A stretch of DNA of 52,793 nucleotides from Levilactobacillus zymae DSM 19395 (GTDB lineage: Bacteria; Bacillota; Bacilli; Lactobacillales; Lactobacillaceae): NCBI RefSeq assembly GCF_001434115.1, contig NZ_AZDW01000039.1, positions 43,485-96,277 on the forward strand, read 5' to 3'. Shown one piece after another: positions 11,013 to 20,562 of this stretch. Position 1 is the stretch's first letter. Each line of letters starts with the position of its first letter. Under the pieces are notes generated by a model. It ran no database searches. It was not told the DNA's origin and worked only from the letters and a program-made list of their open reading frames with translations. Both the position numbers and the translations under genes were made by a program.

Positions 11013-13112
11013 TTAGTTTTGACGCTTCCGCCGAACTAACCAGCCACCTAACAGGCTACCCGCTAAGGACAACCCGAGTAGTTGGGCCCAGCTACTGTGG
11101 GCTTCACCGGTTTGTGGTAACCCGGTGCCCACGCCGGTACTCCGGCCCATGGCAACCAAGAGTTGTTGTTCAACGGCCTCCAATTGAGCGACCAACGTGG
11201 TGTCGTGTGCCGCCTTAGCTTCGGCAATGGCCGTTTCCAGCTTTTCCAACGTGACTTCCCGTTGGGCTTCGGTGGTATCGGCCGCAATCTCTTCTTCAAA
11301 CTCTTCCACGATCTCATCGTCTTGGTGATGGTGCGCGTACGAGTTTTCTTCCTCAACGTCGGGTTCTTCGGTTACCGGCGTTTCGGGTTCGGGAGATTCT
11401 GGTTCTGGAGATTCCGTTCCGGGCGTCTCCGGTTCTGGTGTCTCTGGTTCTGGAGATTCTGGTTCGGGTTCTGGCTCCGGTTCTGGTGTTTCCGGTTCGG
11501 GATTTTCAGGTTCTGGTTCCGGCTCTGGTTCGGGCGTTTCCGGTTCTGGGGCTTCTGGTTCGGGTTCTGGCTCCGGTTCCGGCGTTTCGGGTTCAGGTTC
11601 TGGTTCGGGCTCTGGTTTAGGATTCTTGTTATCTTGCAGGTCCCACCGGTGAGTTTCGGCATTTACAATCACTTTATCGGCGATGATGTTCCCGTCAATA
11701 TTAGATTTAGCGATTATTGTAGCAGATGGGGCTAACATGCTCCCCTGGAACCGCCGTTCCACGTGAATGGTCCCGGTGTACTGTTGGTCGGTAGCCGAAC
11801 GGTCGACAAAGTTCCAGAGTAAATGGTTATCCCCGAAGTCTTCGGTTTCGTGATTATTCCGGTCGGTCCCGTCACTATAGATGACCTTAATCTCTGAATT
11901 GATAGTGTAGTCGGGATCACTCCCCGTATCCACGTTAATGATCACGGTGTTCCCGTCGGCGTCTGGCGATAAACCCTTAATGGTCAGTGGCGTATTGCCT
12001 TGAAGTACTTCCGGCGATAAGTTAAGCACGATACGCCCGTTTTCGTCCGGTGTCATATCCGTAACGTCGATGACCCGGTTGTTCTGATCATCGAAGTCCG
12101 CCGCCGTGTAGTCCCGCACGCTGTCGGCCGCCGCAAAGTTCACATTCTTATTCCGAAGCTTTTCGAATTCCTTATCGAAGTCTATGTAGGTCTGGCCGTT
12201 CTGGTCCTGGTACACTTCGGAAGCAACCAAATGATCTATATCGATACCGTTAACTTTTGGTCGATTAGGGTTACTTACATCAACGGTAATGCCCTCACCA
12301 AAAATCACTTTATTTTCCCGCGTGTCCCCCGCAGAAACAAAGGAACTGTTGGCAATTTTCGTAATATTTTGAATGTAAGAAATATCCTTATCTAGTAGTT
12401 CTTCAATGATGTTGGTCCCAAAGTTAACGTTCCCTGTCAGATTCTGTACGGCTACGTTCCCGTTAGTATGGGCGTTCAATTCCGCATCCCGAGCAAAGAT
12501 GTGAAAGGCCGATGAGATCCCTAACAAATTATCATCTTCAAGCGTTGGGTAGTCGTCATAAACGCTGCCTCCGGATGGAACGGTCGACTTAGCCGCACGG
12601 GAGACGTTTTGGGCAGTTTGCGCAAACTGTTTTGCTTGTTGGTTTGACTGGTTTGGTTGCGTTGAATTCGAGTTCGCATCCGTCTTTTGGTCGGGCTGGG
12701 ATGCCTGATTCTGCTGCGACTGCGACGAATCCGTTACAGCTGACGAATCGGTTGTATCGGTTAGCTTAGTCGATTCGACAACCGCGTTCGTATTAGCATT
12801 GTCTTTACCATTTTCGGTGTCGCCTGACGTCGTCATTTTAGTCGCTCCCGACGTTTGGGTCGTGGTGCCCTCAGTGGTGTCCGACTTTGCGCCGTCATTA
12901 GCGGTCGATGACGTAGACGTATTTTGGCTGGAAGTCGACGAGTTACTCCCCATGGCGACCTGTGACGTTGCGGATTGGTCACTAGAATTGTTGGCCTGAC
13001 TGTCCGCGTGAGCCACCGTTGTGCCGCCACCTAAGGCCAACACCACGGCACAAGCGAAGACCCACTTGCGACCATCTTTATACATCTTAAAATGCGTTCG
13101 TTTAGTTTCCAT
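11013..13112 (-). CDS. LPQTG-anchored surface protein with KxYKxGKxW signal and choice-of-anchor A domain
   Basis: 699 residues. Order: KxYKxGKxW-type signal (FKMYKDGRKW, residues 8-17) with cleavage after AHA near 36; a Ser/Thr/Gln-rich low-complexity region to about 175; a choice-of-anchor A type domain (LLGISSAFHIFARDAELN at its start, GNIIADKVIVNAETHRWDL at its end, about 195-495); a Pro/Glu repeat stalk (PEPEPE, about 500-580); an acidic His-containing helix; then LPQTGE at about 665, a hydrophobic helix and RRKRQN. LPQTxE is the form of sorting signal known from Lactiplantibacillus sortase substrates. It is a wall-attached protein on the cell exterior; ligand unknown. Single gene with its own terminator. 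Confidence 0.85.
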   Translation of the reverse strand: METKRTHFKMYKDGRKWVFACAVVLALGGGTTVAHADSQANNSSDQSATSQVAMGSNSSTSSQNTSTSSTANDGAKSDTTEGTTTQTSGATKMTTSGDTENGKDNANTNAVVESTKLTDTTDSSAVTDSSQSQQNQASQPDQKTDANSNSTQPNQSNQQAKQFAQTAQNVSRAAKSTVPSGGSVYDDYPTLEDDNLLGISSAFHIFARDAELNAHTNGNVAVQNLTGNVNFGTNIIEELLDKDISYIQNITKIANSSFVSAGDTRENKVIFGEGITVDVSNPNRPKVNGIDIDHLVASEVYQDQNGQTYIDFDKEFEKLRNKNVNFAAADSVRDYTAADFDDQNNRVIDVTDMTPDENGRIVLNLSPEVLQGNTPLTIKGLSPDADGNTVIINVDTGSDPDYTINSEIKVIYSDGTDRNNHETEDFGDNHLLWNFVDRSATDQQYTGTIHVERRFQGSMLAPSATIIAKSNIDGNIIADKVIVNAETHRWDLQDNKNPKPEPEPEPEPETPEPEPEPEPEAPEPETPEPEPEPEPENPEPETPEPEPEPEPESPEPETPEPETPGTESPEPESPEPETPVTEEPDVEEENSYAHHHQDDEIVEEFEEEIAADTTEAQREVTLEKLETAIAEAKAAHDTTLVAQLEAVEQQLLVAMGRSTGVGTGLPQTGEAHSSWAQLLGLSLAGSLLGGWLVRRKRQN

Positions 13113-13308: not shown

Positions 13309-15753
13309 TTATTTTTGCCGCGAGCGGCGACTAAACCAAGTCAACCCCACCGTAGCCAGGAGCGCGGCCCCCAACCAAGCGCCGAGGCGCCCGCGTTGCT
13401 CGTTGGTCTGCGGCAGATCTCCATCAATCGTGGTTGTACCCTGCGTCGGAAAAACGGTTGGCGTCAGGTCGTTTTCAAACGAACTGGTGCCCCCCGTCGA
13501 ACCGCCGGGTTGATTCGAATCCAAACCGCCTTCAAACGGGCCGGCCGGACCAATCGTCCCCGGACCACCCGTGACATCGTCGTCCTGCTCGTCGGTTACG
13601 GGCGCTGTGGGCTGGTCGGAACCCGAATCAGTATGCGAACTAGAACCAGAACCGGTGGAAGAACTGGAACTGGAACTGGAGCTAGAACTCGAGCTAGTGT
13701 CTGAACTAGAACTGGAACTAGAACTGGAACCAGAACTCGAGTCGCTTCCCGAGTCGGTCCCTAAACCAGGATTAGTCGGTGGCGTGGGCGTGCTTGGCGT
13801 TGAACTCGAACTAGAACTGGAATTGGAGCTGGAACTCGAACTGGAATCCGAGTTAGAACTTGAGTTTGAACTGGAACTCGAGCTGGAACTCGAACTGGAA
13901 TCCGGGTTAGAACTTGAGTTTGAACTGGAACTCGAGTTGGAACTTGAATTTGAGCTGGAGTCCGAACTGGAATTCGAATCGGTGCTGGAACTGGAGTCCG
14001 TGCTAGAACTGGAATTGGAGCTAGAATCTGAGCTGGCGTCCGAACTTGAGTCAGAACTCGAATCGGTGCTGGAACTACTAGAAGAACTAGAATTTCCTCC
14101 GTTGTCGCCCCCGTCCGAACCGTTGCCACTACCACCGTCACCTTCGATTGGCGTATAAATCATGGTGATGGTGTGGGCTTGGTCGCCAAACGTCCCCTTC
14201 TCGTCGCCTTCCGCCTTAGTCCATTCGTACCCCGGAATATCCAACCGTTCGGCCTCGTACGGGGCACCGGTGTCGCCGTTCAAGGTCACGTCCGGCGCAA
14301 TTTCTTCACCGGTGGTCGAGACGTATTTCACCGTGATGGGTTTGCCGGCCTCGCGGTCCTTGGTATACACGTAGGTCACCGTCTGGGCCTGGTCGCCGAG
14401 TTTCCCTTGCGGCTCACCCTTGATCTCTTTAAACGTGTACCCCGGCAGCGTCAAACGTTCCGTGGTGTAATCGTCCCCCACGTTCCCGTTCAAGACGATG
14501 TCGTCTCGCAGACTCTTGCCGTTTTCATCCTGATACTTGACCGTGACCGCCTGGGCCTTGACCGGGTCCTTGGTGTACACGTAAGTCACCGTCTGGGCTT
14601 GGTCGCTAAATTCGCCCTGCGCGGCGCCCTTAACTTCCTTAATGGTGTGGCCGGGAAGTTCCAGTTGTTCCGTGATGTAATGATCCCCCACGACCCCTTC
14701 AAGCACGATGTCATCGTGCAGGGATTTTCCGTCCTGGTCCTGGTACTTGACCGTCACCGGCTTGGCTTCGGCCGCCAATTTATAGGGTTGGGCGACCTTG
14801 AAGATGCCGTCCTTATCCTTCCCTAACAGGTAAAACTTATCCGGTAACGGCGTCACGTTTTGACCGGGCAACTCGGTCGGGCCGGGTTCCTGGTCCACAA
14901 TATCGGTAAACTTCAAGCCCCCCTGACCGTCCGGGGTTCCCGTTCCCCCGTTAAAGTAGTACGACCGAAAAATCTTATCATCGGGCGTCCAATCCGATAA
15001 CCGGGCGTAACTACTGGGCGCCTCCAATTCGACCGGCGTACTGGATTTAAACTTCAACGCCACTTTCAGGTGAGCCGAACGGGACTTGGCGCTAATGTTG
15101 ACGGTCGGCCGTTCGATGAACTGATCGGTGTAGGTAAATTGCTCGTACTGGCTAATTGGCAACATCGAAAAGTCTTCGATGTAGTTCCAGCCCAATGACA
15201 TCTGGGTAACGTTCTTGAGCCCCGCCAACGGGGAAACGTCCTTCAACCGGTTATATTGCAGGTTCAGCACTTTTAAGCTCTGCAAATCCTTTAACGGCGT
15301 GACGTCCACGATGTCGGCGTTCAGCCGGACCGGGTGATAGTTCAAGTCGCCGCCCAAGGTCAACCGTTCCAGGTTCGTCGCGTACTGCAGGCCCTCCAGT
15401 GAATATTCCGTTTTCCCGTCAATGTAAACGTGCTGGGTATCGTGTAAACTCTTCAAGAGTTGCATGTCGTCCTTGGTGATCTCACTGACGCTCTGCCACT
15501 CCTTATTCGGATTGTCGTCCTTTAAATCCTTCAGCACGGTCTCTTGCAGCCGCTTGTTTGGCATCCAACTATCGATAGATTCGTCGGCTTTAGGCTTGGA
15601 CTTGGTCGTAGTAGTTGCCGCCCGGTCCGTCGTGGTCGTGGTGCCGGCCACCGCCGTCAGCGGGCCCCCAGTTAAGCAGACCGCGGTCAAGCTCACGACC
15701 GTCAGGCTTTGGGACCACCAGCGCGTGGTCGACCGTTTCGTTACGTGTGTCAT
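13309..15753 (-). CDS. LPQTN-anchored surface protein with LRR, three MucBP repeats and Ser-rich stalk
   Basis: 814 residues. A signal peptide ends near residue 36 (TAVAG). Residues about 80-200 form leucine-rich repeats (LERLTLGG, LKVLNLQYNRLKDVSPL, VTQMSLGWNYI) with the internalin-like cap before them. Three MucBP domains follow at about 331-396, 402-466 and 471-536 (VTVKYQDxxGKSL ... AQTVTYVYT). Residues about 541-715 are a Ser/Asp/Asn stalk. The C-terminus has LPQTNE at about 780, a hydrophobic helix and RRSRQK; the Asn in place of Gly fits the LPQTxE rule of lactobacilli. Role: probably mucus or host/plant-surface adhesion (family knowledge plus inference). GGGGGAG precedes ATG 15753. 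Confidence 0.87.
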   Translation of the reverse strand: MTHVTKRSTTRWWSQSLTVVSLTAVCLTGGPLTAVAGTTTTTDRAATTTTKSKPKADESIDSWMPNKRLQETVLKDLKDDNPNKEWQSVSEITKDDMQLLKSLHDTQHVYIDGKTEYSLEGLQYATNLERLTLGGDLNYHPVRLNADIVDVTPLKDLQSLKVLNLQYNRLKDVSPLAGLKNVTQMSLGWNYIEDFSMLPISQYEQFTYTDQFIERPTVNISAKSRSAHLKVALKFKSSTPVELEAPSSYARLSDWTPDDKIFRSYYFNGGTGTPDGQGGLKFTDIVDQEPGPTELPGQNVTPLPDKFYLLGKDKDGIFKVAQPYKLAAEAKPVTVKYQDQDGKSLHDDIVLEGVVGDHYITEQLELPGHTIKEVKGAAQGEFSDQAQTVTYVYTKDPVKAQAVTVKYQDENGKSLRDDIVLNGNVGDDYTTERLTLPGYTFKEIKGEPQGKLGDQAQTVTYVYTKDREAGKPITVKYVSTTGEEIAPDVTLNGDTGAPYEAERLDIPGYEWTKAEGDEKGTFGDQAHTITMIYTPIEGDGGSGNGSDGGDNGGNSSSSSSSSTDSSSDSSSDASSDSSSNSSSSTDSSSSTDSNSSSDSSSNSSSNSSSSSNSSSNPDSSSSSSSSSSSNSSSNSDSSSSSSSNSSSSSSSTPSTPTPPTNPGLGTDSGSDSSSGSSSSSSSSSDTSSSSSSSSSSSSSTGSGSSSHTDSGSDQPTAPVTDEQDDDVTGGPGTIGPAGPFEGGLDSNQPGGSTGGTSSFENDLTPTVFPTQGTTTIDGDLPQTNEQRGRLGAWLGAALLATVGLTWFSRRSRQK

Positions 15754-17993: not shown

Positions 17994-20341
17994 TTAAGGC
18001 CCCCACACATGTGGGGAATACAAAGTATACGTTGCCGGCTAGCCGGTGGTCGGAGGAATCACCCCCACACATGTGGGGAATACTTGGTGAAGTTCCGGGA
18101 GAACCGGAAGTTGCCAGAATCACCCCCACACATGTGGGGAATACTTTAGCGTGGTTAATGGGAAGCTTTGCATTTGGGAATCACCCCCACACATGTGGGG
18201 AATACGACAATGAAGCGGGTCTATAATCAGCGAATCCGGAATCACCCCCACACATGTGGGGAATACGCTATCATGAGAGAAGTAATTATTCAAAAGTCGG
18301 AATCACCCCCACACATGTGGGGAATACAGATTTCCTTGCCATTCTGATCAGTGGCAAAGAGAATCACCCCCACACATGTGGGGAATACCGTGACCGCTGC
18401 GGCGAGCTGCGTGATTCGGTAGAATCACCCCCACACATGTGGGGAATACCGAGAAGGTACTCCGCAATTGCTCACCGTGGCGAGAATCACCCCCACACAT
18501 GTGGGGAATACCAAACCCTTTACCGTGGTGTACTGGTCTTGGAGGAATCACCCCCACACATGTGGGGAATACACACCCCGTGGCTGACTGCCGTGTAGTC
18601 CCCGGGAATCACCCCCACACATGTGGGGAATACGCGCTTTACCAAAATTCATAATGTTTCCTCCTAGAATCACCCCCACACATGTGGGGAATACCCTTGG
18701 CCGCCGGAACTCTTACGCCGGAATTTAGAATCACCCCCACACATGTGGGGAATACAATGCAAAAAGGCCCTGCCCGTCATATCAACGGGAATCACCCCCA
18801 CACATGTGGGGAATACCTTCTATCAATCCTAATAAAGAGAGGTTAATTAGAATCACCCCCACACATGTGGGGAATACGTTGGACTGGCACACGCGCTTCA
18901 CAGCATTCTGGAATCACCCCCACACATGTGGGGAATACAGTGATTGAAATATCACCTAAAGTGATGTATTAGAATCACCCCCACACATGTGGGGAATACG
19001 TTCAATAGTTACCTTGGCGTTCGGCGGGGTGAGAATCACCCCCACACATGTGGGGAATACCTTTCGCACCAAATTCACCCATAATTGCTTCTGGAATCAC
19101 CCCCACACATGTGGGGAATACGATTTCGGGGCGCGATGCCATCAACATTTCGAAGAATCACCCCCACACATGTGGGGAATACGGTGAGAAAATTCAATCT
19201 AGTGGGTATAAGCCGGAATCACCCCCACACATGTGGGGAATACTCCAAGTCGATTTACAAAAATCATGACAGAAAGGAATCACCCCCACACATGTGGGGA
19301 ATACACATTTCGCATATCGAGGATTTCGTCATCATTAGAATCACCCCCACACATGTGGGGAATACATGCCATACAGCCGATTGCGCGAAACCACATCAGA
19401 ATCACCCCCACACATGTGGGGAATACGCCGCCAATGCGACTTATTCATGTCCCGATAAAGAATCACCCCCACACATGTGGGGAATACACTTTGATAGAAG
19501 GTGAAACGATTGCTAATTCGGAATCACCCCCACACATGTGGGGAATACTTCAATTCTACTAGCTGCTTTTTGACGCCTTCAGAATCACCCCCACACATGT
19601 GGGGAATACATGAAGGACATGGCGGACGTCAAAGCCAATAAAGAATCACCCCCACACATGTGGGGAATACCAGATACTGGCAAACCGATGTATACGACTC
19701 ATGGAATCACCCCCACACATGTGGGGAATACTACCAAGCGACTTTACCAAGACTACTACCAGCGGAATCACCCCCACACATGTGGGGAATACACCGAGGT
19801 GGGTGGCTCTTTTTTTGTACAGTTAGAATCACCCCCACACATGTGGGGAATACGAATCCTTGTCGTTCGCCCACTTAGGGGTTTGAGAATCACCCCCACA
19901 CATGTGGGGAATACATTATCTTCAAAGGCTTAAAGATGAGCATCTTAGAATCACCCCCACACATGTGGGGAATACTTCAGCGTCACTAACGCACAGCCAA
20001 CTGACCTAGAATCACCCCCACACATGTGGGGAATACGGGCTGACCAGGACGTGTTGCATGAGTTGTTTAGAATCACCCCCACACATGTGGGGAATACAGG
20101 GAGAGGCCTTAATCAAGGCCATTGAAACGGGAATCACCCCCACACATGTGGGGAATACCCCAACAAGTAATCTACAGAAACGCCAAGAGCAGAATCACCC
20201 CCACACATGTGGGGAATACAAAATACGTGGATCTAGCCACCAATTCAGCACGGAATCACCCCCACACATGTGGGGAATACCGAGAACCAACACGGGGCCA
20301 AACCAGCGAAATAGAATCACCCCCACACATGTGGGGAATAC
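17994..20341 (-). CRISPR. Type I-E CRISPR array, 39 repeats and 38 spacers
   Basis: Perfect 28-nt repeats (core CCCCACATGTGTGGGG on the minus strand, starting GTATTCC and ending GGGTGATTC) recur every 61 bp. Only two intervals, the first and the eighth, are 62. Repeat starts run 18056, 18117, 18178 ... 20314; the lowest copy (17994-18021) keeps the 22-nt core but has lost the outer six bases, marking it as the oldest, trailing repeat. The G-TTCCCC start, the short internal palindrome (CCCCACA / TGTGGGG) and the 61-bp unit are type I-E traits, and place transcription on the minus strand. Every spacer ends with A or G on the plus strand (22 A, 16 G), so each starts with T or C in the transcript; the real repeat is best described as 29 nt ending in Y with 32-nt spacers. 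No cas genes occur within the window. Confidence 0.98.
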
Positions 20342-20562
20342 ACTAAACAAATCCCGGCATCAAGCCATTTGAAAACGAACTAGTTACGTATTTTCATTAA
20401 CTTGCTTTTAATATATATGATTCCGGTACTTATTTTATCAATAGTTGTTAACGATTTCAATAAATCCATCTACAGCATAATCTCGGTTTAAGTCGCATTA
20501 ATTTTGACCATCAAGCGCCCAGCCACTTAGCCTATTTTTTAATCCTAATCACCACGACAAAA
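20342..20562 (-). promoter_or_regulatory. CRISPR leader with promoter
   Basis: AT-rich region upstream of the first (leader-proximal) repeat. On the minus strand TTGAAA (20455-20460), 17 bases, TAAAAT (20432-20437) make a near-consensus promoter firing toward the array, leaving an untranslated leader of roughly 85 nt. No gene is seen in it. Confidence 0.7.

Follow-up and report, generated by a model that had tools for sequence, protein, structure and literature searches.

A variable pyrimidine at the repeat-spacer border of a Levilactobacillus type I-E CRISPR array very probably derives from the AAY PAM of the invader

INTRODUCTION

Does the base at the border between a CRISPR repeat and its spacer belong to the repeat, to the spacer or to the invader? 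The question is raised by a 52,793-nt stretch of the genome of Levilactobacillus zymae DSM 19395 (the window; all coordinates count from its first base unless a contig is named), in which every spacer of a type I-E array opens with a pyrimidine (Y). A sequence-only reading had proposed that this Y is a 29th repeat base derived from the PAM, and had predicted that the protospacers would be preceded by NNT or NNC, probably AAT or AAC. We recounted the array, followed the Y through related genomes and compared it with the base adjoining the matched protospacers.

RESULTS

Layout of the array

The features of the locus are the following.

18000..20341, minus strand: type I-E CRISPR array of 39 repeats and 38 spacers, leader at the right
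20342..20355, minus strand: leader end GGGATTTGTTTAGT, identical in alignment to the leader adjoining cas2 in congener G034
20314..20341, minus strand: leader-proximal 28-nt repeat GTATTCCCCACATGTGTGGGGGTGATTC, followed by the putatively PAM-derived T at 20313
18022..20313, minus strand: the 38 spacers; first transcript base (29th repeat base) T in 22 and C in 16
18000..18021, minus strand: leader-distal terminal repeat, degenerate at its spacer-side end

Repeat cores number 39 between 18000 and 20341, and the full 28-nt repeat (GAATCACCCCCACACATGTGGGGAATAC on the plus strand, GTATTCCCCACATGTGTGGGGGTGATTC on the minus strand) is present in 38 of them. The unit length is 61 nt, made up of 28 repeat bases, the Y and 32 further bases, which agrees with the sequence-only reading except for two spacers that are one base longer: with the Y included, 36 spacers measure 33 nt and two measure 34 nt (18022-18055 and 18450-18483). 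Such a unit, with a 28/29-nt hairpin repeat whose palindrome was judged by eye, is characteristic of type I-E. The AAY motif of the matched protospacers lies on the Y side of the spacers, which fits transcription of the array from the minus strand with the leader at the right; the opposite orientation was rejected on the same ground. Levilactobacillus acidifarinae (DSM 19394) likewise has GTTTAGT followed by the repeat, in five stretches.

Upstream of the leader, positions 20342-20410 weakly resemble the 3' end of the G034 cas2 gene, and the orphan array looks as if it had been copied along with the end of cas2. Elsewhere in the window, two large LPXTG-type surface proteins (11013-13112 and 13309-15753) stand beside tartrate dehydratase genes; one carries a KxYKxGKxW signal and the other has internalin-like profile matches below cut-off.

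A pyrimidine at every border in the window and the genome

The plus-strand base before each full repeat is A in 22 cases and G in 16, that is T or C in the transcript in 38 of 38, exactly the numbers first reported for this array. The remaining 1218 spacer bases have a pyrimidine fraction of 0.503, and against this background the chance probability of 38 Y in 38 is about 5e-12, where about 1 in 2 to the 38th had been estimated. At any other spacer position of the window, Y reaches at most 25 of 38. T and C switch from spacer to spacer, and the leader-near and leader-far ends alike consist entirely of Y.

The rule extends to the rest of the genome (2.70 Mb in 59 contigs), in which CCCCACANNTGTGGGG has 68 matches with at most one mismatch on at least 7 contigs. 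All 24 junctions at six repeat loci outside the window carry Y, and counting the whole genome with a general repeat pattern gave 59 Y and no purine (R).

Extent of the rule among relatives

With the same general pattern, which also counts isolated and terminal repeats, 301 sampled genomes of the family yielded 1450 Y (in 52 of the 301 genomes) and 27 R (in 21 of the 301). Another fixed base in a relative had been named beforehand as an outcome that would speak against a PAM origin, and by this pattern none of the 301 genomes has one. Two genomes, G251 and G294, have nearly all T (12 of 13 among the places listed for each), which still fits Y. Across the array units read in the genus, Y occupies 489 of 496 borders (T 269, C 220, A 5, G 2). 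The last window spacer, spacer 38, adjoins the degenerate repeat and is absent from this set, from the set of 472 spacers used below and from the comparison with targets.

One may ask whether acquisition is looser than the arrays suggest, with Y spacers alone surviving since interference or crRNA processing needs Y. True exceptions exist: in 18 of the 27 R cases a further repeat comes next, showing that units without Y can enter an array. Selection after capture is still compatible with the arrays, but the window array has no decay gradient towards its leader-far end, and we consider this explanation very unlikely.

The two pyrimidines occur in similar proportions in the window (T:C 58:42, from 22:16) and in 472 genus spacers (55:44). 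These values are close to the ratio of AAT to AAC in two phages, 58:42 in LBR48 and 57:43 in phage Lb (30 kb each), and unlike the 44:56 of the window DNA outside the array, which points to capture with little preference between the two.

The border base matches the base adjoining the protospacer

Convincing targets were found for three of the 38 window spacers.

18267..18299, minus strand: spacer 34, with C at 18299; 33/33 match with an AAC flank, in three congeneric genomes and in phage LBR48, where the 33 matched bases begin with the C and follow AA
19610..19642, minus strand: spacer 12, with T at 19642; 30/32 match preceded by AAT, in one congeneric genome
18573..18605, minus strand: spacer 29, with C at 18605; 29/32 and 28/32 matches preceded by ATC, in two congeneric genomes

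Spacer 34 is also matched in phage JNU_P2, where the flank is AGC, and the ATC flank of spacer 29 might be AAT displaced by one base. Arrays of congeners add 23 spacers with targets, 19 from one array of G034 and four from G001, bringing the total to 26 distinct spacers. Counting the best target of each, the flanks are AAT in 13, AAC in nine, and ATC, AGC, GAT and CCT in one each. AAY thus stands directly 5' of the protospacer for 22 of the 26 spacers, and all 26 flanks end in Y, as the sequence-only reading had predicted.

The array base is identical to the base adjoining the protospacer (position -1 of the target) in 24 of the 26 spacers, as a PAM-derived 29th base would require: 13 pair T with T, 11 pair C with C and two pair an array C with a target T (Fisher p = 2e-5). 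One of these last two also has an AAC target. When all 48 targets are read, both bases are T in 18, both are C in 24 and they differ in six (42 agree), and the target base is Y in 48 of 48. These 48 were taken among the matches listed: 6 of 6 entries for window spacers, 32 of 54 and 8 of 15 spacer-sized entries for congeners, and two phage matches. When they were compared with 118 spacers, to which the window contributed 37 of its 38, all of them passed the 84% line. Entries covering repeats or whole arrays had been set aside by eye. BLAST matches of 33 bases are slightly biased towards targets that agree at the first base. The AAY flank and the identity of T or C with the -1 base together lead us to conclude, with high confidence, that the border base is copied from an invader carrying an AAY PAM.

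The same numbers bear on the possibility that the repeat itself is polymorphic for T/C, the base being handed from repeat to repeat independently of the invader. The equivalent position in E. coli, a constant G, was once counted as repeat (according to the accessible text of PMC10011333), and this genome does have variant repeats in other places. A polymorphism would, however, agree with the target about half the time, whereas agreement is 24 of 26 with T and C switching spacer by spacer, and the T:C ratio of the array follows the AAT:AAC ratio of two phages. We find this explanation scarcely credible.

It is harder to set aside the reading in which the true PAM is the dinucleotide AA and Y is only the preferred first protospacer base, chosen by Cas1-Cas2 or Cascade and perhaps paired with the target. 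In the text available to us, the authors of the Gardnerella study gave an AA motif and left it open whether C/T is spacer or repeat, and the Megasphaera Cas1-Cas2/DEDDh integrase is said to recognise TT at the PAM position. Yet the restriction to Y (489 of 496) is as strong as that of a PAM position, and the equivalent base of E. coli is described as PAM-derived. The difference between an AA PAM followed by Y and an AAY PAM is partly one of naming; as a distinct explanation we judge the former unlikely, and the Y is treated below as the last base of an AAY PAM.

Several further matches stand outside these counts. Phage Lb was rejected as a target of spacer 28 (E = 9), since the ungapped match is only 22/32 and resembles a ribosome-binding-site/start region; its -1 base is A, so that it would have counted against identity. 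Citrobacter phage Tr1 gave a 21-base match with E = 9. Phage JNU_P4 and a second LBR48 record repeat JNU_P2 and LBR48. The single phage record for array L088 of G001 was an array-like match and was rejected, and array L091 of G003 had seven phage records, including weak LBR48/JNU matches (E = 0.5) and two enterobacterial phages (E = 0.1). A plasmid search with E up to 10 returned 382 records, one at 99% identity or more and one at 90-95%, with no match recognisable as a protospacer among the 60 records listed, which looked array-like; with E up to 0.01 it returned eight records of 60-80% identity and no spacer-length match. In viral_contigs, exact 20-base seeds of six window spacers (spacers 1, 2, 4, 5, 10 and 12) found no match.

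Two congeneric spacers match their own genomes. The 34-nt spacer 6 of array L086 (G001) matches its own chromosome over 34/34 bases at L171 (G001, contig C28, 424326-424361) next to CCT, which is not AAY; the listing has similar sites in another ten genomes of the genus, that of the window included (L178), and the spacer is probably a tolerated self-derived one. In G034, one spacer has a 33/33 match with a full AAT PAM on a 38.8-kb contig of its own genome (L140; contig C4, 28135-28168), a self-target whose element is of phage or plasmid size.

A weak preference at the two bases after the pyrimidine

The neighbouring base had been described as free of bias. This holds for the window alone and fails across the genus, where 472 distinct 33-nt spacers favour A weakly at both of the next two bases (0.38 and 0.40, or more exactly 0.377 at +1 and 0.405 at +2). 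At other spacer positions A ranges from 0.22 to 0.32, and after AAY in two phages, a thin control, it is 0.23-0.25 at +1 and 0.30 at +2. Binomial tests gave p = 4e-4 for a purine at +1 against a chosen null of 0.55 and p = 1e-5 for A at +2 against a null of 0.31. Broken down by source, A occupies +2 in 17/47 spacers of this genome, 51/100 of G001, 12/43 of G003, 69/169 of G034 and 42/114 of the others, so that G003 has no excess. The acquisition signal may extend past AAY, with A or G and then A favoured, in which case the integrase would read about five bases; we put this a little short of an even call. On this reading, with each spacer keeping its own Y, the proportion of T to C in an array would estimate the AAT:AAC make-up of the invaders that were met.

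The cas genes and the state of the genome

Contig C43 of this genome carries the six type I-E operon genes cas3, cse1, cse2, cas7, cas5e and cas6e, cse1 being called by PF09481 above cut-off while its NCBIfam score is below cut-off. The window array is thus remote from its cas genes. In this draft genome no Cas1e, the member of the cas1e/cas2e pair that the search covered, scored above cut-off; Cas1e exceeds the cut-off in 18 of 35 genus genomes, this one being among the 35. Behind cas6e come about 177 bases that end like the end of cas2 with the leader, then a repeat and the end of the contig. The order at this contig end (L002, 14324-14581) is cas6e, directly followed by the stretch resembling a cas2 3' end, the leader and a variant repeat. 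In G034, by comparison, the order is cas6e-cas1e-cas2, with a Cas2 fused to a DEDDh-type exonuclease and adjoining a leader whose last 14 bases are identical.

As far as a draft assembly allows, this genome seems to have lost cas1e-cas2e from its type I-E locus by deletion. No cas1e having been found, the array can probably be regarded as a frozen record, a claim to which the same limit of the assembly applies. A type II-A locus (cas9, cas1, cas2, csn2) is present on contig C17 (L092, 183-6297), and its cas1 frame contains an in-frame TAG. Both adaptation modules, type I-E and type II-A, may be inactive.

DISCUSSION

A model of capture

The counts and the target flanks indicate a true repeat of 28 nt, the 29th base being, very probably, the last base of the AAY PAM (AAT or AAC) that enters with every spacer. 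In the model that we propose for its capture, a Cas1-Cas2 integrase with a Cas2-DEDDh fusion, as in G034, would hold the complement of AAY on the prespacer; the complement of AA would be trimmed off and the base opposite Y kept. The resulting 33-nt piece would be joined to the duplicated 28-nt repeat, each spacer thereby retaining its own PAM base. This machinery is modelled on relatives, no cas1e having been found in this genome, and growth of the array would have ended once cas1e-cas2e were lost. For the Megasphaera Cas1-Cas2/DEDDh integrase, it is reported that Cas1 shields the PAM until half-integration and that DEDDh then trims to a ruler length (PMC10284694, in the text available); a ruler that left one PAM base would give an array such as the one seen here. 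The crRNA handle would then end in a variable Y, and self would be told from non-self by the two preceding bases, UC in the repeat and AA in the target.

For AAY-type I-E systems, the last PAM base can accordingly be read from the array alone, with no protospacer match needed, and a border set after 28 bases counts a PAM base as spacer.

Comparison with known systems

The array is a clear case of something already suspected and not a new system. The E. coli type I-E system shares the 28-nt core repeat, the 61-nt unit and a last repeat base that comes from the PAM, as set out in the accessible text of PMC10011333. That base is the G of AAG and was first read as repeat; here the PAM ends in Y, so that T or C varies per spacer and can be seen as a record. 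The sequence-only reading was right to contrast a Y-ending PAM with the fixed G of E. coli, and the phenomenon itself had already been described in Gardnerella. For the type I-E arrays of Gardnerella vaginalis, a 2012 study reported C or T as the opening base of 97.5% of spacers, with AA upstream, and discussed AAT/AAC (PMC3559282, in the part available to us). Gardnerella belongs to the Bifidobacteriaceae, and the origin of its C/T was left open in that text, whereas the T/C identity in 24 of 26 spacers here points to the invader. For Lactobacillaceae, our result bears on the 2012 question: the border C/T comes, very probably, from the invader. A search of the open-access literature brought up no paper that we recognised on this base in Lactobacillaceae, which does not imply that none exists.

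Closer relatives show the same motif. The Lactobacillus casei type I-E system (Ldbu1 repeats) has a similar repeat (22/28 by eye) and AAY upstream of its protospacers; the repeat is given as 29 nt ending in C, and C/T is not handled per spacer in the accessible part of that paper (PMC3496567). A PAM catalogue lists AAT for Lactobacillus type I-E (PMC8482600), the same PAM as here. The catalogue ties agreement between PAM and repeat at -1 to AAG (I-E) and TTC (I-C), as far as its available text goes, and such a count would miss a variable Y that had been assigned to the spacer. In Ligilactobacillus salivarius, AAT was functional in a cell-free assay and AAC is present at a self-target site (PMC11288051, from the portion available). 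For L. brevis, the accessible text of PMC9204096 predicts TTTYRNNN and CCN as type I-E PAMs. These disagree with AAY, although L. brevis is not a known source of any array analysed here; the disagreement matters for the repurposing of native systems.
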